Shown here one piece after another: positions 6,465-33,850 of a stretch of 34,010 nucleotides of DNA; position 1 is the stretch's first letter; the number at the start of each line of letters is the position of its first letter. The DNA lies in IMG/VR virus record IMGVR_UViG_3300027770_000160, positions 1 to 34,010 of that record; one strand, 5' to 3'. This DNA is from a virus. The notes beneath the pieces were generated by a model. The model was not told the origin of the DNA and did no database searches. It worked only from the letters and a program-made list of their open reading frames with translations. Both the position numbers and the translations under genes were made by a program.

Positions 6465-9140
6465 TCAGGCGGTCCCGAACGGCAGTCGCCGTTGCAGTCC
6501 GAGTTGACGTCTGAACGCGTCGGCGGCTGCGCGTCCGGCGGTTGCGCCGTCGGCAAACCCGCTTACGTTGATGATCACGGTATCAATGCCTCCGGCACCG
6601 AACGATCCAAGCGGTGACGCGCCAGGCATCGTGTCAAGTGGCACAAGTGCCTCGGGTCCAGCCTCGCCGATCATCGCCATCGTCGGTTGCGTCACGATGG
6701 CACCACGCGCGCCGACGGTCTTGAAGTTGTGCACGACCCATCGCGCGGTTCCCACGAGGTAGGTGTGCGATGGATGATCGACGTGGATGTTGTGGACCGT
6801 CGCGACCCGTCCAGCATCGTGCGATTCCTCGACAATCTCCCGCCCGGTTGCAGTCATGACCACCGACCCTGCCCGTAATTCGTCAGCGCGTCGCCATCCG
6901 TCCGGCGTCAGGAACGGATGTTCCGCCGTGGTGCTGACCACGTCACCGTAAATGCGCAGGTGCCACACCGGATGATCTGCGTGCACGAGCGTGTCCGCGA
7001 CGGTCGACATGACAACGGTCCCGGTTTCCAGGTCGTACACCTCGACGATGTCGCCAGTCACGATCTCCGCGATCCTCATCAGACCGTTTGCTGTCCACAC
7101 CCGCGTGTCCGCCGTGAAGCACGCGAACCCCCGTCGGCCACCAGCAACGGCCTGCACGATGGTCGCTGCAATCCCCGCAACCACGAGCGCGGCTGCCGTC
7201 AACGTCGCGCTTGAGGTTTCCCCGCCGACGCCTTGCGCCACCGGCGGAACACTCAGTCCCTGTGCATTCGGACCCGTCGAGTCGGTGACCGCGTTGTCCG
7301 CCTCAATGGTGCGGTGCACCGTCGTGATCATCCGCGGAATTGATGCGAGCGCGTCGATGATCGACCGGATGCCTGACTCCACGCCCCCAAAGTCGATCCC
7401 GAACGCGATGATGATCAACGTGGGAATCAAGGACAGGCCGTACATCAATTTCGCCACCGCGTCAAGCGCCTGCGTGACTATGCCGGAGACCTCGAATTGC
7501 CAAGGCGCGTCCGGTGTCACGATCTCAATGATGCGCGTCCTGAGATCTGCAAGTTTGTCCAGCGCATCGGTCACGATACCCCTGACGGTAACCGTCCACG
7601 GCTCTGCGGGTTCGCGCAGGCTCGTCGTGCGCTCCTTGATGTCATCCATCGACGCGACTGCGTCGCCAGTGTCGGCCGTCACCTTGATGGCGACATCCCG
7701 ACCCATCAACGTGTCGAGTTTGTTGCGGACCTCGTCATACCCGCTCAGTGCGAGATTGACGAGAATTTCCATGCCTTTGAGACCAGGCACGACGAACTCG
7801 GCAATGTTCCATAGCACCTTGATATTGATGTCCGAGAATGTCGGCAGTTTCAGGACCGCCACGTCCCACAGAACCTTGATGGTTGCAACGGGATTGGTCA
7901 CAAGTTTGGCGATCCACCCGAGCAGTTCGACAATCCAGTCGCGTGCCTCGGCGAAGATCTTCGGCCATTCGCCAATCCGCGCGCCCCATGCCATGACCCA
8001 GTCGATGCCAGCCTTCAGCGCGTTGCCAAGGGCACGCAGGTAATCCCACACCGGCTTCAGCAAACGTGCCACGAATTGCAGCCCCGCGCCCAACACACGC
8101 ATGACGAGCGTAAACGCCTTCAGCGCAATCGTCAGGAACGGTAGGACCGCACGACCCATGTCAAACAGGATCGTCATCACCGGCCGGATGACTTCTAAGA
8201 CCGCCTTGAACGCCTCTCCGGCGGCTGCAAGGAAGTCCTGGAACTCCTGCGACGCGGTGATCGCGCCAATGCCCGCGTCAAGGTCCGCCAAGAGGTCAAT
8301 CATGCCCCGCAGGTACTGCTTGGTCAGCGGTTCGAGCGCCTTGCCGAGCGTCGCCAGACTGCGCGTCAGTTTCGCGTCCATCGTGGACGACAGTCCCTTG
8401 ACCGACTGCGAAGCGCGCTCGGTTGACCCGCCGAACTGCTTTTCGATCTGGTCAATGAGCAGCGGCAGAACCTTCTTCGAGACCAATTGCCCCTTCGATG
8501 CCATTTCGCCAAGCGCGGATGTCGATACGCCCATCGCGTCGGCCAGCATCTTTTGCGCCGGTATGCCCGCTTCCGCAAACTGGTTCAGTTCCTCCTGGCT
8601 GACCTTGCCTTTCAGCAGCATTTGCGAGAACGCAAGTGACGCGCGCCCAAACGTTTCGGCGCTGTCGCCGCTGATGTCGGAAAGTCCCGTCATGACGCGC
8701 GTCAGATCCTCGGCTGCGACGCCTGCGCCCAGTAGCCGCTGCGCGGATTGCATCACCGCCGCGTCGTCAAATGGCGACCAGTCCGCAAACTCCTGCAATT
8801 TCTTGAAGGTCGCGTCGGCCTTTGCGGCGTCGCCGGTCAAACGTAACAGCGTATTCCGGTATCCCTCGACTTCGGACGCTGCAGCCACACTCGCCTTGAC
8901 GACGGCGATGGTGCCTGCCACCAGCGCTGCCGTGGCTGCGACCGCAACGCCGATCCCGATGGCCGCCATGTTGGCACCGCCACCGACCGACGTCAATGCC
9001 CGCGCTGCGCCGAGCGCGCCACCGGACGTACCGGACATCCCGGAGTTCAGTCCGTTCAGTGCCCCGTTGATGCGCTTGAGCGCCGGGGTCGCCTGATCAT
9101 TGACGACGGCATTGATGCGCAGGTTCGCGACGTTCGCCAT
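6465..9140 (-). CDS. tape measure protein with embedded Hint (intein-like) domain
   Basis: 891 aa, the longest gene. AAGAGG lies 5 bases before the ATG. The N-terminal third has the tape-measure signature (KLQEFADWSPFDDAAVMQSA, RLLGAGVAAEDLTRVM, FAEAGIPAQKMLADAMGV), followed by long hydrophobic helices. Residues 674-805 form a Hint domain: it starts CFTADTRVWT, has TAEHPFLT in the middle and ends YLVG...WVVHN. After it comes the classic tape-measure end, GAIVTQPTMAMIGEAGPEAL. The residue after HN is Phe806, not the Cys/Ser/Thr needed for normal splicing. The protein sets tail length and is ejected with the DNA. It follows the tail chaperone gene, as expected. Confidence 0.93.
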   Translation of the reverse strand: MANVANLRINAVVNDQATPALKRINGALNGLNSGMSGTSGGALGAARALTSVGGGANMAAIGIGVAVAATAALVAGTIAVVKASVAAASEVEGYRNTLLRLTGDAAKADATFKKLQEFADWSPFDDAAVMQSAQRLLGAGVAAEDLTRVMTGLSDISGDSAETFGRASLAFSQMLLKGKVSQEELNQFAEAGIPAQKMLADAMGVSTSALGEMASKGQLVSKKVLPLLIDQIEKQFGGSTERASQSVKGLSSTMDAKLTRSLATLGKALEPLTKQYLRGMIDLLADLDAGIGAITASQEFQDFLAAAGEAFKAVLEVIRPVMTILFDMGRAVLPFLTIALKAFTLVMRVLGAGLQFVARLLKPVWDYLRALGNALKAGIDWVMAWGARIGEWPKIFAEARDWIVELLGWIAKLVTNPVATIKVLWDVAVLKLPTFSDINIKVLWNIAEFVVPGLKGMEILVNLALSGYDEVRNKLDTLMGRDVAIKVTADTGDAVASMDDIKERTTSLREPAEPWTVTVRGIVTDALDKLADLRTRIIEIVTPDAPWQFEVSGIVTQALDAVAKLMYGLSLIPTLIIIAFGIDFGGVESGIRSIIDALASIPRMITTVHRTIEADNAVTDSTGPNAQGLSVPPVAQGVGGETSSATLTAAALVVAGIAATIVQAVAGGRRGFACFTADTRVWTANGLMRIAEIVTGDIVEVYDLETGTVVMSTVADTLVHADHPVWHLRIYGDVVSTTAEHPFLTPDGWRRADELRAGSVVMTATGREIVEESHDAGRVATVHNIHVDHPSHTYLVGTARWVVHNFKTVGARGAIVTQPTMAMIGEAGPEALVPLDTMPGASPLGSFGAGGIDTVIINVSGFADGATAGRAAADAFRRQLGLQRRLPFGTA
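6726..7121 (-). other. Hint / intein-like domain inside the tape measure gene
   Basis: Encodes residues 674-805: Cys674 (block A, CFTADTRV), TxxH at 738-741 (block B), His792 (HTYLVG, block F) and the terminal His804-Asn805 (block G). At 132 aa there is no room for a homing endonuclease. The +1 residue is Phe, so complete protein splicing by the standard route is not expected. Cleavage at either end remains chemically possible, as in bacterial intein-like and toxin Hint domains. Confidence 0.88.
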
Positions 9141-22525: not shown

Positions 22526-22854
22526 AGCGCCACCTCCCACGTGGACCGCGGGCACACGAACCGGATTGTCCGCGGTACGCCGCCCGTGACGCTGTCGCCC
22601 GGTTCGAACGCCCACGCGACAAGCACGAATGATCGCCAGTGGTTAGCGTTGCCGAGTTCCTCGTCCTCCGCGTCGGCCTGGCGGATGGCGTCCCACAACT
22701 CCTCGGGCGACCCGAGATCCGGACGCGGTGGGTAGATGATCCGGAGTTCCTGCAAGACGTCCTCGGTCTCCACCTGCATCGTGACACCGCACGGTTGCGC
22801 CCTGATCCACACGATTAGGCGTGCTGGCAACCCAAACCCGTCAATCAATGGCAT
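22522..22854 (-). CDS. protein of unknown function between sigma factor and RusA
   Basis: 110 aa from ATG 22854, with GGGG upstream; the frame continues further upstream, but inside the sigma gene, and reads unlike a protein. It starts MPLIDGFGLPARLIVWIRAQPCG, then an acidic helix region (EELWDAIRQADAEDEELGN) and C-terminal strands (FVLVAWAFEPGDSV). It overlaps the sigma gene stop by 10 bp and RusA by 4. I do not recognise it. The co-expression implied by the overlaps is the only clue. Confidence 0.5.
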   Translation of the reverse strand: MPLIDGFGLPARLIVWIRAQPCGVTMQVETEDVLQELRIIYPPRPDLGSPEELWDAIRQADAEDEELGNANHWRSFVLVAWAFEPGDSVTGGVPRTIRFVCPRSTWEVAL

Positions 22855-23456
22855 GAGTCGTAGCCCCTTTGTGACGCGACCGCCTCGAATGTCCGCCTCG
22901 CACGGAACAGCGCGTGACGGATGCCCCGGCCGGTCTTGCCCTGGCGCTGCGCCGACTCGACGCTGTTGAGTCCTGCCAGCATCGTCCGGACACATCGTGC
23001 CTGGTACGCCGTCATCATGCCGAGCGCCTCATTGACGATTGACGCGACCTCGTTACCGACCGCGCGTGCATGCGGGTCGGTGGCCGGTGACGCCTCGAAG
23101 TGCGGGTCCGTACGGACCGCGTCGCCGGACCCGTTGACGGTTCCGTGGTCCAGCATCCCGTCCGGTGCCAGGCTGACGTGACGCCGGTACGACGCACGGT
23201 TGGCGAGGTCGAGGACGGTGTTGCGCGTGATCGTGTGCACCCACGAGCGCAGCCCGTCGTGGCGTCCATGACCGGGTCTGCGCTCCACGGTCGGTAGGTT
23301 TGCCCACACCTTCGTCCAGACCGTTTGCACGCAATCCTCGGCGGATGCGCTGTCCAAGGTGCGCCCCTTCATCAGGCGCTGCACGTGTCCGGCGACCTCA
23401 CCCTGGAGATCCTCGTAGAGCACCTCGAACGTCACCCGTACATCCGTGTTCAGCAC
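22845..23456 (-). CDS. ECF-like sigma-70 family RNA polymerase sigma factor
   Basis: About 203 aa from GTG 23456. Region 2 is recognisable: FEVLYEDLQGEVAGHVQRLM, SAEDCVQTVWTKVWANL and GLRSWVHTITRNTVLDLANRASYRRHVSL. Region 4 follows near the end: MTAYQARCVRTMLAGLNSVESAQ and GRGIRHALFRARRTFEAVA. A missing region 3 makes it ECF-like. It would direct host RNA polymerase to phage promoters, plausibly late ones, since it precedes the packaging genes. Start is chosen because GTG overlaps the end of the 58-aa membrane peptide. The 130-145 linker is long and Gly/Asp-rich. Confidence 0.85.
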   Translation of the reverse strand: MLNTDVRVTFEVLYEDLQGEVAGHVQRLMKGRTLDSASAEDCVQTVWTKVWANLPTVERRPGHGRHDGLRSWVHTITRNTVLDLANRASYRRHVSLAPDGMLDHGTVNGSGDAVRTDPHFEASPATDPHARAVGNEVASIVNEALGMMTAYQARCVRTMLAGLNSVESAQRQGKTGRGIRHALFRARRTFEAVASQRGYDSCH

Positions 23457-23626
23457 CGGCGGTACGCCCCGCAGGTGCACTCGCGTGATCCCGTCACACG
23501 CCTCTCCCGTTCCGTGATCCACAGTCCGCGTAAGCGGTCCGCATCGAACAGCGCCCACAGTGCGATAGCCAGGAGCATCCCCAGCATCGCCATTTCCAAC
23601 CCGACCGCCAGCCAGTATCCCGCCAT
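23450..23626 (-). CDS. 58-aa membrane peptide preceding the sigma factor
   Basis: Below the usual gene-size cut-off, but ATG 23626 has GGGGG at 5 bases and its TGA overlaps the sigma start by seven bases. One hydrophobic span (YWLAVGLEMAMLGMLLAIAL) is followed by a basic, cysteine-bearing tail (RERRVTGSRECTCGAY). It may simply couple translation of the sigma factor, or act on it from the membrane as anti-sigma proteins do for host ECF factors. The latter is speculation. Confidence 0.6.
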   Translation of the reverse strand: MAGYWLAVGLEMAMLGMLLAIALWALFDADRLRGLWITERERRVTGSRECTCGAYRRC

Positions 23627-27593: not shown

Positions 27594-28013
27594 TTAGAAC
27601 TCGCCATCATTCGCGACCGTCGTCGCGCCATTCATCCCGGACGTCACCGCCCGTGGTTGCACCGGACGCACCGTCGTGCGTGCCTCGCTGTACGTCACCT
27701 CCTCGTATCCCGCCAGCCCGTCACCGGACCCGTAATACCCGGCCATCGCAAGCGCCCTGCCGTACGCCGACGTTTCCGCGGTCTCGACCGGCGAGGACGC
27801 CTGCGCGCCACCACCGGAACCGCGGGTCACCTCGGACGATCCTTCGAAGATGCGCCCGTCGGTAAATTGCACCGTCACCACGACGATCTGGAACTCACCG
27901 ATCGTCACGAACCGCGTCACCGTCGACGCGATCCCCATCGGCCGGATGTGTTCCCCGTGCGCCTGCTGCGCCCGGTGCGCCACCGTCGCGTAGGGTCGGC
28001 CCCGTATCTGCAT
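27594..28013 (-). CDS. conserved phage protein, possible recombination / ssDNA-related
   Basis: 139 aa. It starts MQIRGRPYATVAHRAQQAH and continues FQIVVVTVQFTDGRIFEGSSEV, then the motif VETAETSAYGRALAMAGYYG. I know this pattern (IxGxxYxTVAxR ... AETSAxGRALA) from a widespread phage family. Its ETSA.GRAL element is like one in single-strand-annealing proteins such as Sak and Erf. It lies between DNA-binding and replication genes. The first 119 bp overlap the XRE gene in another frame. Ends NDGEF. The role is suggested, not shown. Confidence 0.65.
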   Translation of the reverse strand: MQIRGRPYATVAHRAQQAHGEHIRPMGIASTVTRFVTIGEFQIVVVTVQFTDGRIFEGSSEVTRGSGGGAQASSPVETAETSAYGRALAMAGYYGSGDGLAGYEEVTYSEARTTVRPVQPRAVTSGMNGATTVANDGEF

Positions 28014-28323
28014 TATTCCGCCCACGTCCCTTTGCCTTCCGTTCCGTGCGCCTGATCAACAGCGCCGGGACCACCCCGAGCGCCTGTGCGATCCGTTCGA
28101 CCGACTCCTTCCGCATCCGTGCCTCGCGCTTGCCGTCGGCGACGTCACGACCACGCTCGGCGCGCACGATGGTGGCATACGACGTGTTCGACAACCGCGC
28201 TAGCGTCTCCATCGACATGCCAGCGAGCAGGCGGACTTGCCTCATCGTCTCGCCGGAGATCCTGACATCATCGCCGTACCCGCGCCACACGACCGTGACG
28301 CTGGCATTCGCAAAGTCCGGCAT
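27895..28323 (-). CDS. XRE-type helix-turn-helix regulator
   Basis: 142 aa from ATG 28323, with GGAGGG 7 bases upstream. The DNA-binding domain is at residues 25-90: TMRQVRLLAGMSMETLARLS, NTSYATIVRAERGR and SVERIAQALGVVPALLI, a normal XRE order. The last 40 residues are low-complexity Gly/Asp/Arg and overlap the next gene in a different frame, so the true need for this tail is doubtful. It could be a Cro/repressor-like protein acting at the palindromic operators in the two early promoters, which is inference. One-base TGATG junction with the preceding gene. Confidence 0.75.
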   Translation of the reverse strand: MPDFANASVTVVWRGYGDDVRISGETMRQVRLLAGMSMETLARLSNTSYATIVRAERGRDVADGKREARMRKESVERIAQALGVVPALLIRRTERKAKGRGRNNADTGPTLRDGGAPGAAGARGTHPADGDRVDGDAVRDDR

Positions 28324-29193: not shown

Positions 29194-29219
29194 ACCACCG
29201 GACCCGCAGGCCCGGTGGT
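29194..29219 (-). terminator. intergenic hairpin after the 66-aa gene
   Basis: ACCACCGG at 29194-29201 pairs with CCGGTGGT at 29212-29219; the 10-base loop can pair further. It lies in the 87-bp gap downstream of the 66-aa gene. No U-tract follows. Confidence 0.5.
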
Positions 29220-29236: not shown

Positions 29237-29437
29237 TCAGCGCCAATCCTCGACGCCCATGTATTCGATCACGCGCGTCTGACCCTCGTGAATGAGTGCC
29301 TCCATGTTGGCATCCTCGTATCGCGCGGTTTCGCTTACTAACTCCTCGATAACCGCCTCGACCTTATCGGCATCGCCCTCGATACCGTCACGCAAGATCG
29401 CCTCGAAATCGCGTCGTGTGGTTGCTGTCCGTGTCAT
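29237..29437 (-). CDS. small acidic helical protein
   Basis: 66 aa; AAGGGA lies 8 bases before the ATG. Almost entirely helical and acidic: RRDFEAILRDGIEGDADKVEAVIEELVSETARYEDANMEALIHEG. It lies directly after the GAAA-loop hairpin that ends the preceding cassette. Its size and charge recall small early phage proteins that bind host enzymes, but no family was recognised. Confidence 0.55.
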   Translation of the reverse strand: MTRTATTRRDFEAILRDGIEGDADKVEAVIEELVSETARYEDANMEALIHEGQTRVIEYMGVEDWR

Positions 29438-29462
29438 CGTTTCGTTCCCTTCGCTGGCTGGT

Positions 29463-29914: not shown

Positions 29915-29943
29915 ATTGTGCCACATGGCTATAGCCATGTCAA
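29915..29943 (-). promoter_or_regulatory. promoter P2 with perfect palindromic operator
   Basis: On the minus strand: -35 TTGACA (29943-29938), a 17-base spacer and -10 CACAAT (29920-29915). The spacer contains the perfect 18-bp palindrome ACATGGCTATAGCCATGT (29923-29940). A 45-base leader with AAGGGA precedes the 126-aa gene. The palindrome in the spacer is where a repressor would block polymerase. Confidence 0.8.
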
Positions 29944-29972: not shown

Positions 29973-30746
29973 CTACCACTTCCGGCCGCTCGAAATCGTC
30001 CGTCCCATCGCGTCGATGATCGGCATCGCAACCACCGCGGATGCGGGTTGCGCGTCGTTGTCGTACCACGCCTCACCGCGTCCGAGGACGATGACTTTGA
30101 CGCGATCCTCACCAACGCGCCTGGCAATTGCCACCGCGTCGTACGACCGGTCACGGAGCGGACACCAGCCCGCGGTCCCGTGGCTTTCGGGTGTTTGGCA
30201 CGCCAGCACCGGCTTGACGCCATTGCGGTACGGACCACACAACCACCGTGCAAAGTCGTGACCATCGCCCGTCACCGTGCGCCACACGCCGGTACCGACA
30301 ACGTAGATCAATCGGCCGGTGTCGCGCTGGCGCAACATCCACGCCGTTTCCTGATGCAACCACCGGGCATTGTTCGCGGCTTGGATGTTGGCCGCCTCGA
30401 ACGCTGTTTCGCGCCGGTGCGCGCCGGTGCGCTGATACGCATGCAGCACGTAAAAGCGCACCCGACCCTGCGATATCACCCACGCGTCGTACCCGTCGAC
30501 CAAGCGCTCGCGCATCATGTTGGCGTTTAGTGCGCGTCCAACCCGCCTCGGGTCCGGTCGATCAGGACGCACCAATGACACTTTCAGCCGTTGCCCGTCG
30601 TACAACGTCACGCCTGGAGCGTCCAGCACCGCGCGTTTCGCCGTCTCCCAATCCGGCGCTTCCACGAGCGCCAACATGTGCTCGTTGGCGATTTGGTTCC
30701 GCGGATGCGCGCCGTAGCGACGCACCGTCCATTTGTATGTTGTCAC
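29973..30746 (-). CDS. hypothetical protein following the methylase
   Basis: 257 aa from GTG 30746, with GGAG 8 bases upstream, overlapping the methylase stop as GTGA. Starts TTYKWTVRRYGAHPRNQIANEHML. It carries long basic/aromatic stretches (ARWLHQETAWMLRQRDTG) and several Trp/Cys residues (ARWLCGPYRNGVKPVLACQ). No catalytic signature was recognised. A DNA-modification or host-takeover role is only suggested by co-expression with the methylase. Ends ISSGRKW, 30 bp before promoter P2. Confidence 0.55.
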   Translation of the reverse strand: MTTYKWTVRRYGAHPRNQIANEHMLALVEAPDWETAKRAVLDAPGVTLYDGQRLKVSLVRPDRPDPRRVGRALNANMMRERLVDGYDAWVISQGRVRFYVLHAYQRTGAHRRETAFEAANIQAANNARWLHQETAWMLRQRDTGRLIYVVGTGVWRTVTGDGHDFARWLCGPYRNGVKPVLACQTPESHGTAGWCPLRDRSYDAVAIARRVGEDRVKVIVLGRGEAWYDNDAQPASAVVAMPIIDAMGRTISSGRKW

Positions 30747-31774
30747 AGTCCCAACTCCATTTGTGCCCCAAGGCACGCTGGTGATAGCCACAGGCGCTCG
30801 CGCTTGTGCGCCTTGACATCAGTGCTATATCCCGGTCCGCCACCCGCCTTCCCCTGCACCTTGCGCCAGCCGTGCGCCAGCAGCGCATCGTGGTCCTCCT
30901 CGAAGCCGCACAGGACGATGCGCAGGGTCGCATCCGCCGTCAGGCACCACTTCCGCACCGCGTTGGACACGTCCGCATCGACGTGCGCGTACAGGTCGCC
31001 TGACGTCGCGTACGGCGGATCAAGCAGGATGCCCACCGACCCGTCACCGCCACGCGTGGCACGCACCGCGCTTGGTGTCACGACGCGCTTCCAATCCCCG
31101 CACGTGATGCGGACCGATGCCAGCCTCGCCGAGAGCGCCTGCATGTACGTTTGCAATGATGTGACGTTCACGGACAGCATGCCTTTTCCCCCGTCGCCGA
31201 GGTGTGGCAGTTCACGGTTGACGCCTTTTCCCCCGTCGCCGAGGTGTGGCAGTTCACGGTTGACGCCTTTTCCCGCGTTGCCGAGGTGTGGCAGTCCACG
31301 GTTGACGCCTTTTCCCGCGTTGCCAACCTTGCGGAGGTGCCCGTCAACGACGCGCCACGGTCCTGATCCCCACGGGTCTCCGATGCCGCAGGCGCACACG
31401 TACAGCCACCACCCGGCCGCCCGCGCATCGTAATGCAGCGGATCACCCTCAAGCCACGCGACAAGGTCCGCGTCGCGACGCGCCTGGAGCCACGCCAAAC
31501 GTGCGTGATAGTCGATCTCGGTCACCGGCCCGGATGCGGCATCCGCAACCGCGTCCGGCGACAACTGGATGGACCGCCACGTGTTGACCAGCCACCCGTC
31601 CGCATCGTTGAGCGTCTCCACGCGACCGCCGGTGACGGACGGACGCGCCAGCAGTACCGCGGCTGATCCCGCGAACGGTTCCACGTACCCGCCCGGATCA
31701 CCGAGTGCCTGCCAGATCATCGGCGCAGCGCGGTGCTTGCCCCCAAAATAGGGAAACGGCGCCTTCAGCGTCAC
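30743..31774 (-). CDS. dam: DNA adenine methylase, Dam / D12 class
   Basis: 343 aa from GTG 31774, overlapping the previous stop as GTGA. Motif I is FPYFGGKHRAA at 7-17, the SAM-binding VEPFAGSAAVLL follows at 31-42, and the catalytic DPPY is at 252-255. It would methylate adenine in a specific site, protecting phage DNA or marking it. Between these lies an insert of three and a half 14-aa repeats (GNAGKGVNRELPHL type, residues 151-198), in the region where target recognition usually lies. No matching restriction enzyme is seen. It ends QMELGL, as does its upstream neighbour. Confidence 0.92.
   Translation of the reverse strand: MTLKAPFPYFGGKHRAAPMIWQALGDPGGYVEPFAGSAAVLLARPSVTGGRVETLNDADGWLVNTWRSIQLSPDAVADAASGPVTEIDYHARLAWLQARRDADLVAWLEGDPLHYDARAAGWWLYVCACGIGDPWGSGPWRVVDGHLRKVGNAGKGVNRGLPHLGNAGKGVNRELPHLGDGGKGVNRELPHLGDGGKGMLSVNVTSLQTYMQALSARLASVRITCGDWKRVVTPSAVRATRGGDGSVGILLDPPYATSGDLYAHVDADVSNAVRKWCLTADATLRIVLCGFEEDHDALLAHGWRKVQGKAGGGPGYSTDVKAHKRERLWLSPACLGAQMELGL
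31181..31324 (-). repeat. 42-bp tandem repeat inside the methylase gene
   Basis: About 3.4 in-frame copies of a 42-bp unit encoding GNAGKGVNRELPHL with small changes. Each copy keeps the reading frame, so copy number could change without breaking the protein. Confidence 0.85.
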
Positions 31775-32139
31775 AGTCCCAACTCCATCTGTCCCTTTGG
31801 TTCCGTCGCCGTCAACGCCGCCAGGCGCTCCTCGAGGTGCGCCAGCGCCACCGCGCGATCCGTCCCGAGATCCACTTCCGCGTCACGTCCACCGCCCCAC
31901 GGCACCACGGCGTACCGTCCGTCGCGCAGGATGATTTCCCACACGCCTCGCGTCGACCCTTGAGTCACGCTCGTCGGCCTGACGTGGTTCGCACCGTCGC
32001 GGTACAGCGACGCGACGCAGTGCGCCGTCTCGCCTGCGATCCACGGTTGCCAGCGTGGCAGATCGTCCGCCACGCCTTCGAAGATCCGGATACCGAGCGT
32101 CACGATCTCCCCGTCGTATTCCGGGTCGGTGACGCTCAT
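31771..32139 (-). CDS. hypothetical protein between PP-loop protein and methylase
   Basis: 122 aa; GGAGG lies shortly before ATG 32139, which overlaps the upstream stop as ATGA. Sequence: IVTLGIRIFEGVADDLPRWQPW, then VASLYRDGANHVRPTS, VWEIILRDGRYAVVPWGGG and a helical end with KGQMELGL. Beta-rich, no catalytic signature. The last six residues are the same as those of the methylase, and that stretch also carries the ribosome site for the next gene. Probably part of one modification operon; the function is unknown. Confidence 0.6.
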   Translation of the reverse strand: MSVTDPEYDGEIVTLGIRIFEGVADDLPRWQPWIAGETAHCVASLYRDGANHVRPTSVTQGSTRGVWEIILRDGRYAVVPWGGGRDAEVDLGTDRAVALAHLEERLAALTATEPKGQMELGL

Positions 32140-32948
32140 CGTTCCTCCTCATCCACAAAACATCCGCACCCGCCGATGTCGGCGTCATCAATCAACGATG
32201 GTTGCAATTCCGCCCGCAAACGCAAGGTTTGCAACGTCAACGATGTTGATTGTCCGCCGCTTTGCTCCTTCAAGATGGCTACGTCCTTCCCCAAAAAAGC
32301 CGCCATATCAGACTCACGCTTTTCCCATTCCGCAAACCGTTCGGGCATCGTTCGCAGTAGCAGCCGGAAGTGCCCTTGACCGGCGCGGACGCACCCGCCA
32401 CCGCAGTTGTTGTGAGCGAATCCAAGATCGTAGAGACGTGGGGTCACTAAGCCTTCGCGACGCGCCCACGCAAGCAATTCGTGCTTTTCCAGGTATGGCT
32501 TTGCGTTCAAGGGAAATTCCACGGCATATGGTTCGTTGCGCTTGATTGCGCCCGGAATTCGATGCGCCTCTGACCAGTCGATGCCGAGGTACACAATCGT
32601 CTGCAACGGGTCGCAGTTGTCCAGCAGCCATTGGCGGGATGGCTTGACTTTGAGTTCAGTTGAACATGACGCCAACTGAGAGTTACCCAGCCATCGTCGA
32701 TCACGGAAAACTTGCCAGATATCCCGGCCATCCCGGACTGTTACCAGCGTGCCCCCGACGTTCCTAGCGGATTCCGCGATAAACCGATACGTATCGGCAT
32801 CCTCACCAACATGTTCGCTGGTGTTATTGCCCTTGACATCCGCAAACAGCAGAATCAAATGTTCCGTCCCGTGTTCGTCGGCCACGCGTTTAGCCGCTGC
32901 CCACGACCCAATTCCGCCCGAGAACATCACCACGCGCGTGACGTTCAC
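32136..32948 (-). CDS. PP-loop ATPase / PAPS-reductase-like protein
   Basis: 270 aa from GTG 32948, overlapping the upstream stop as GTGA. The PP-loop is VVMFSGGIGSWAAAKR (SGGIGS at 10-15), then LLFADVKG and YRFIAES. CSTELKVKPSRQWL (Cys95) is the usual C-x-x-x-LK-x-x-P element of PAPS reductase relatives. Four more cysteines, NCGGGC at 182-186 and GCGC at 261-263, may hold an iron-sulphur cluster. Proteins of this group transfer sulphur or activate bases (as in DndC-type DNA sulphur modification). Next to a methylase, a DNA-modification role is plausible but not shown. The gene is somewhat AT-richer than its neighbours. Confidence 0.8.
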   Translation of the reverse strand: MNVTRVVMFSGGIGSWAAAKRVADEHGTEHLILLFADVKGNNTSEHVGEDADTYRFIAESARNVGGTLVTVRDGRDIWQVFRDRRWLGNSQLASCSTELKVKPSRQWLLDNCDPLQTIVYLGIDWSEAHRIPGAIKRNEPYAVEFPLNAKPYLEKHELLAWARREGLVTPRLYDLGFAHNNCGGGCVRAGQGHFRLLLRTMPERFAEWEKRESDMAAFLGKDVAILKEQSGGQSTSLTLQTLRLRAELQPSLIDDADIGGCGCFVDEEER

Positions 32949-33402: not shown

Positions 33403-33420
33403 GGCCGGGTTTCCCCGGCC
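33403..33420 (-). terminator. GAAA-loop hairpin, cassette copy 1
   Basis: Same hairpin as at 29463-29480: GGCCGGG/CCCGGCC with a GAAA loop on the minus strand. It lies 8 bp after the stop of the 81-aa gene. No U-tract follows, so read-through into the next gene is expected. Confidence 0.7.
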
Positions 33421-33720: not shown

Positions 33721-33750
33721 ATTGTAGCCACGTGGCTATAACCATGTCAA
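33721..33750 (-). promoter_or_regulatory. promoter P1, leading early promoter
   Basis: On the minus strand: -35 TTGACA (33750-33745), 18-base spacer, -10 TACAAT (33726-33721). The spacer contains TGGTTATAGCCA, a near-palindrome matching the operator in P2. The leader ending GGCGAAGGGAACGGGACG before the ATG is the same as in P2. The intrinsic terminator at 33784-33816 lies 33 bp upstream. Confidence 0.82.
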
Positions 33751-33783
33751 CCTTTTAGGGACCAATTCCGGGCAAACGGAAAA

Positions 33784-33816
33784 CCCGTTCCCCGGTGGTT
33801 GTAACCGAGGAACGGG
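33784..33816 (-). terminator. intrinsic terminator at the end of the late unit
   Basis: On minus-strand RNA a 13-bp stem (one G-U wobble) closes a 7-base loop and is followed by UUUU (33783-33780). It is the only hairpin of the junction series with a good U-tract and lies just before promoter P1, so it should stop late transcripts coming round the circle. Confidence 0.75.
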
Positions 33817-33850
33817 CGGGAACCGGACTGGAAGGGGAAGGGAAGCAATA

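Follow-up and report, generated by a model that had tools for sequence, protein, structure and literature searches.

Twin early promoters with a shared candidate repressor operator in the genome of an uncultured phage

Two promoters of one phage genome share a -35 hexamer, a palindromic sequence in the spacer and much of a leader, and this raises the question of whether both are controlled by a single DNA-binding protein and, if so, which one. The DNA analysed here, referred to as the window, comprises positions 1 to 34,010 (34,010 nt) of IMG/VR record IMGVR_UViG_3300027770_000160. The first 127 bases of the window are identical to its last 127 bases, and by this 127-bp terminal repeat it appears to be the complete genome (about 34 kb) of a phage belonging to an uncultured genus. 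The main genes form a single series on the minus strand and include head genes of the HK97 type, a tape measure gene and genes for an endolysin, a D5-like primase/helicase, an XRE protein and a sigma-factor-like protein. At residues 674-799 of the tape measure protein (6465-9140, minus strand) lies a Hint / PT-HINT domain with the start CFTADTRV and the end VVHNF, a putative intein-like insertion in a tail protein.

Promoters and palindrome of the window

Promoter P1 is located on the minus strand at 33721..33750 and consists of TTGACA, an 18-bp spacer and TACAAT (11/12 match). It is the first promoter past the terminator of the late operon, an intrinsic-terminator-like hairpin (33783..33817, minus strand) directly upstream of P1; at the same position the relatives carry a different stem and then a T run. 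Promoter P2 (29915..29943, minus strand) lies directly after the gene at 29973-30791 and is composed of TTGACA, a 17-bp spacer and CACAAT (10/12), with a TG ahead of the -10. The coordinates of both promoters agree exactly with a preliminary description of this DNA. Of the promoter parts that it took to be shared, TTGACA, the type of -10 and the leader are common to both sites, but the spacers differ in length (17 vs 18 bp). When the window was scanned for sigma-70-like sites, P1 and P2 were its two best matches, and the sole further candidate is weak (9/12 match) and located within a coding region. All P1 and P2 sites of the window and its relatives retain the A in position 2 and the T in position 6 of the -10.

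In clade 1 (window, L050-L053, L055), both promoters have ATTGGT, followed after a few bases by AAA, immediately ahead of the -35; this is possibly an UP-like element or a further protein site. The operon behind P1 contains a D12-class DNA adenine methyltransferase gene (30743-31774), within which a 42-bp repeat is present three times in frame (31181-31324) and encodes a repeated peptide around GKGVNRELPHLG, as well as a phosphoadenosine phosphosulfate reductase-like gene (32136-32948, minus strand).

The perfect 18-bp palindrome that had been described in the spacer of P2 was found exactly so at 29923..29940 on the minus strand (ACATGGCTATAGCCATGT, operator O2). At P1, positions 33730-33747 hold ACGTGGCTATAACCATGT with 2 mismatches to ACATGGCTATAGCCATGT, and the operator O1 (33730..33747) reads ACATGGTTATAGCCACGT on the minus strand, with the half-sites ACATGGTTA and ACGTGGCTA, so that its palindrome shows two asymmetries. 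Besides O1 and O2 the window has no further copy of ACATGGCTATAGCCATGT within 3 mismatches, with 0 expected in shuffles, and a literature search did not turn up the core of the palindrome. The palindrome fills the spacer and overlaps the end of the -35, so that a symmetric operator overlaps promoter elements. O1 had been regarded as a degraded version of this palindrome. This is not established, because each of its bases occurs in the perfect operator of some relative, and O1 may rather be read as a mixed pair of accepted half-sites that is not necessarily degraded. An overlapping palindrome at P1 (TAGCCACGTGGCTA, 33725-33738) was rejected as a second operator, as its half-sites overlap in another geometry and both L052 and L053 lack it.

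A palindrome placed in the spacer is reminiscent of MerR-type promoters, in which the operator lies in a spacer of 19-20 bp, and the site could accordingly bind an activator of this style. The spacers found here are 17-18 bp long and no MerR domain was detected among the early proteins tested, which makes such activation scarcely credible. Due to the normal spacer length between near-consensus hexamers, the spacing of the operator fits steric repression rather than activation of the MerR type. The palindrome by itself is not significant, because perfect 18-bp palindromes anywhere in such a genome have an expected number of 0.285 and at least one was present in 25% of the simulated genomes. The deciding evidence is the location of the operator together with its symmetric evolution across relatives.

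Operator variation among related contigs

Related contigs were retrieved from IMG/VR with exact and degenerate DNA scans and with protein scans, and the window proteins were mapped onto them. Syntenic sites were obtained for P1 in 11 contigs (window, L050, L052, L053, L055, L061, L062, L063, L064, L067 and L070/L077) and for P2 in 8 contigs (window, L050, L051, L052, L053, L061, L062 and L077). The operator box is present at the same two gene positions in every related contig covering them, which answers positively the search for the same box in related phages that had been proposed in the preliminary description. L047 and L048, two relatives with the XRE gene, end before P2 and are uninformative for this promoter.

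In L061, which belongs to a divergent clade and has an XRE protein about 70% identical to that of the window, ACGTGGTTATAACCACGT stands at both P1 and P2 in place of the ACATGGCTATAGCCATGT of the window, and ACGTGGTTATAACCACGT is also found at P1 of L062, L063, L064, L067 and L070. Between the two sequences, positions 3/16 and 7/12 are each altered as a complementary pair. Pair counting over 18 sites revealed changes on both sides in 2/9 pairs, with 96.5% of the cells paired. The number of double-change cells was 11 against a shuffled mean of 3.9 (11 being reached in 1/500 shuffles), and the covariation score was attained by 0/500 shuffles, in a set of partial contigs in which the covariation is carried by few independent lineages (two clades). 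Register-slid controls of the pair counting gave no double changes. The symmetric operator change lowers the -35 from TTGACA to TTGACG, by which the last consensus base is lost. As the arms stay paired while the -35 is weakened, symmetry has been kept over the promoter consensus. The symmetric change of both arms points to a dimer-bound operator with the half-site ACRTGGYTA, and the pattern of the clades is the trace that would be expected from a DNA-binding dimer that acts at both promoters. As natural variation, this symmetric change between clades represents strong evidence.

The same data bear on a simpler explanation, namely that the shared sequences stem from recent duplications of promoter and leader, without any part for the palindrome in binding. 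The two promoters are clearly related, and the roughly one in four chance of an 18-bp palindrome somewhere in such a genome would suit this explanation, which is nevertheless very improbable in view of the symmetric two-arm changes at both L061 promoters, kept across several contigs, and of the diverged flanks. When the two promoters of a single genome are compared, the 21-bp stretch of -35 and palindrome is 95-100% shared, with lower values of 90% for the window and 76% for L062 and L077, compared with 15-47% for the ungapped downstream sequence, and the flanks on both sides have diverged.

The pair of promoters had further been proposed to be controlled by a repressor with different affinities for the two sites. 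A shared operator of the repressor type, conserved with symmetric changes, is borne out, but the ranking of affinities is not, as the better site varies among genomes: the perfect site is that of P2 in the window, those of both promoters in L061 and that of P1 in L062 and L077. In the clade-2 contigs L062 and L077 the right half-site of P2 is broken (ACATGGCTATATCCATCT), and tight binding at P2 is therefore not required everywhere.

Matches to the operator consensus in the unrelated contigs L065, L066 and L068 were without TTGAC and without synteny and were taken as chance or unrelated occurrences. Low-GC contigs retrieved by the degenerate pattern were likewise set aside as another phage group. 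This low-GC group (about 32%; L006, L014, L016, L017, L019-L023, L025 and L026) shows the same design with other sequence, in which TTGACAGGGGTATACCCTTGT, with a near-palindromic spacer, precedes a common leader that ends with CCGAGAGGTTTTCCAAATG and stands ahead of many different first genes. In a nucleotide search of phage records, the P2 region gave no match and the rest only a trivial match.

Leaders and accessory-gene cassettes

The leader hairpins GTGTGG-ACGGGAGACGG-CCACAAC of P1 (33693..33716, minus strand) and GTGTC-GGCGGGAGACGCG-GACAC of P2 (29888..29910, minus strand) are located at or near the predicted 5′ ends of the mRNAs. Both enclose GGGAGACG, and the z-scores of their folding, from -0.6 to -3.2, are modest. 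Since the two stems differ in sequence, the stem has been kept through sequence change. The near-identity of the two leaders, as first described, is confirmed by the ribosome-site linker GGCGAAGGGAACGGGACGATG, which is present at the first gene of P1 (33672..33692, minus strand) and at the first gene of P2 (29867..29887, minus strand). The linker occurs a third time, without a promoter and unmentioned in the preliminary description, as CCAGCGAAGGGAACGAAACGATG (GCGAAGGGAACG..ACGATG) at 29435..29457 on the minus strand, ahead of the second gene behind P2.

Accessory open reading frames follow these leaders on the minus strand. The first gene behind P1 (33429..33674) encodes 81 aa, for which no family was found, the first gene behind P2 (29489..29869) encodes 126 aa assigned to phrog_16123 (no function assigned), and the second accessory gene behind P2 (29237..29437) encodes 66 aa. 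The P1 cassette is closed by the GC hairpin GGCCGGGGAAACCCGGCC without a strong T run (33403..33420, minus strand). The same hairpin is present past the first accessory gene of P2 (29463..29480, minus strand), and a second type of closing hairpin, ACCACCGGGCCTGCGGGTCCGGTGGT, is found past the second one (29194..29219, minus strand) and is identical in L077 (contig M). Across the relatives, cassettes end with GGCCGGGG..CCCGGCC hairpins (both in the window, P1 of L050, L055 and L062) or with a ACCACCGGGCC...GGTGGT hairpin.

Between promoter and core operon an accessory open reading frame is present in 8/8 sites with a leader (P1 and P2 of the window and of L050, P2 of L051, P1 of L055, P2 of L062 and P2 of L077) vs 2/11 leaderless sites (Fisher P = 0.0007, for sequences that are not independent of each other). 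The linker GCGAAGGGAACG follows the hairpin in 7/8 leader sites, with slight differences before the start codon at P2 of L050 and in L077, and the leader site of L062 has a different ribosome site in its place. L052, L053 and L061 have both operator boxes and no leader, and the leader is for this reason read as a separate module outside the operator logic; it belongs to the gene-cassette story.

Exchange of the accessory genes is suggested by L050 (contig A), in which a homologue 93% identical to the 126-aa P2 gene is located behind P1, and a homologue 98% identical to the 66-aa gene is the first gene behind P2. Each copy of the 126-aa gene, in the window and in L050, has the type of leader that goes with the promoter ahead of it, which places the exchange point at the shared linker. 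In the window the 126-aa gene has a copy of the linker on each side and is followed by the 66-aa gene. This gene order and the flanking linkers fit an exchange via the linker, whose direction and mechanism we infer. P1 and P2 might thus be docking sites at which accessory first genes are swapped as cassettes, with a 5′ hairpin plus linker and a 3′ GC hairpin, so that newly gained genes fall under a single early repressor; this proposal is tentative. If it is true, a phage without recognisable lysogeny genes would have a way of adding or swapping early host-takeover genes under preset feedback.

Candidate ligand, proposed circuit and known systems

The preliminary description had named an XRE protein as a candidate ligand. 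This XRE / HTH_3 protein (142 aa; 27895..28323, minus strand) is encoded in the P2 operon, scores above the Pfam cut-offs for HTH_3 and HTH_31 and, besides the sigma-like protein, is the sole recognised HTH regulator among the early products scanned. It is present in every related contig reaching its locus (67-88% local identity), and the stretch of its recognition helix, YATIxRAERGRD, is kept in the relatives. The predicted fold (mean pLDDT 62) has one five-helix domain at about residues 24-99 and a disordered tail, and the best PDB matches of the model, all weak (best E 0.06), were controller proteins of restriction-modification (R-M) systems, DdrO, ClgR and N-domains of repressors. The modelled protein resembles Cro more than CI, because it has one domain without an oligomerisation or peptidase domain. 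Relatives were found neither in cultured phages nor in bacterial genomes. Since neither the recognition helix nor the operator varies much, no independent co-variation between protein and operator singles out XRE. The XRE protein of the P2 operon is likely to be the ligand that binds and represses at the operator, and other early proteins without a recognised fold are possible ligands. At the level of DNA, the repressor reading is well supported by the operator sequences.

Downstream in the transcription unit of P2 and XRE, ahead of the late genes, lies a gene for an ECF-like sigma-70 region 2 protein (22845..23558, minus strand), which is kept in the relatives. Between this gene and the late genes no late promoter site was recognised; the stretch is 89% identical to L050 and looks coding.

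What the sequences themselves show is a pair of conserved sites, a coordinated symmetric change of the operator arms and a leader tied to accessory genes, whereas the identity of the ligand (XRE), repression, timing and the role of the leader are what we infer. Probably, P1 and P2 are early promoters read by the main sigma factor of the host and carry one dimer operator, with XRE as the likeliest repressor in a feedback circuit and the leader as a separate module. Both promoters would fire at the start of infection. A phage repressor dimer, most likely the Cro-like XRE protein, would bind the ACRTGGYTA operator and block RNA polymerase at both promoters, and as XRE accumulates from P2 they would be turned down together, resulting in negative feedback on the early operons. 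The leader hairpin and ribosome-site linker on accessory first genes would ensure translation and offer homology for gene swaps. By this reading, an uncultured phage genus gains from sequence alone a testable control circuit of one 18-bp operator, one candidate repressor and two promoters from which the whole genome may be driven.

Symmetry of the operator indicates binding of a dimer and does not tell whose dimer it is; the site could therefore serve a host-encoded repressor of the TetR, LacI or XRE type through which the phage senses the state of the host, with the phage XRE otherwise employed. This is unlikely, as the operator is confined to the two early promoters of the phage, behind which every contig that reaches the XRE locus encodes an HTH protein. 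Moreover, the exact operator-promoter sequence TTGACATGGYTATAGCCAYGT is absent from a collection of genomes from 84,980 species, although the host may be outside this collection and its operator might match less closely. Alternatively, XRE might be an immunity-type repressor of a non-integrated (plasmid-like or carrier) state, with the twin operators acting as a lysogeny-like switch. No strong sigma-70-like promoters were found besides P1 and P2, and all main genes lie behind these two on one strand, so that silencing of the whole genome by one repressor is possible; the 127-bp repeat, which closes the contig, would also suit such a state. However, XRE lies inside the lytic operon that would be repressed, no divergent maintenance promoter was seen and no partition gene was recognised, and XRE relatives are missing from the bacterial genomes searched, all of which renders this state quite unlikely. 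The first description had seen no lysogeny genes, and tyrosine integrase (PF00589) and serine recombinase (PF00239) are indeed absent from the window genome. With no integrase or resolvase found, feedback shut-off by XRE is likelier than lysogeny control.

The proposed circuit resembles the Cro/CI-type operators of lambda (OL/OR), 434 and P22, where a small HTH_3 protein of the early region acts on two-fold-symmetric operators of one type that overlap two early promoters. Unlike in lambda-type systems, with three operators in tandem, one operator per promoter is located here in the spacer, both promoters have the same direction, neither an integrase nor a divergent repressor gene is present, and the ligand is a candidate. 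The nearest folds to the XRE model are the R-M controller (C) proteins C.AhdI, C.BclI and C.Esp1396I (weak matches, E about 0.06), small dimeric proteins of one domain that control their own expression via palindromic sites, a plan that the XRE protein may share. C proteins bind as paired operator dimers upstream and are both activator and repressor, whereas the site of the phage is single and placed between -35 and -10, and none of its genes was recognised as encoding a restriction enzyme.

Among actinophages, a repressor of an early lytic promoter with repeated sites, operator and stoperators, is described for Cluster A mycobacteriophages (PMC9283540). These sites are asymmetric, occur in many copies and bind a monomer (PMC9283540, PMC4351075), in contrast to just two symmetric sites here. 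Dyad-symmetric repeats of 17 bp in Cluster O mycobacteriophages and of 18 bp in Microbacterium Cluster EG phages, with a ligand unidentified there, are closer in form, and stable lysogens of Cluster O were not recovered (PMC4351075, PMC7302621). Those repeats number from 8 to >30 and lie between genes and, in Cluster O, also within them, whereas the two copies found here are fixed in early promoters. For the leader, the SAS/ESAS of Cluster K and EF phages offer a parallel, a conserved ribosome-site sequence at the starts of different gene families, often with an upstream inverted repeat (PMC3203893, PMC7302621). The hairpin and GGCGAAGGGAACGGGACG linker, which form the ribosome site of several different genes, follow the same plan. 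The Cluster K and EF consensus sequences (GGGATAGGAGCCC / GGGAAAGGACCCC) are not matched by the linker GCGAAGGGAACGGGACG, which is unrelated in sequence, and the copies number 2-3 here vs 10-19 there. Unlike SAS/ESAS, the elements found here are joined to an operator-promoter and a closing GC hairpin and would bound exchangeable first-gene cassettes. The leader cassettes provide the start-associated repeats of actinophages with a hypothesis, according to which such repeats may be marks of gene-exchange and translation modules behind controlled promoters.
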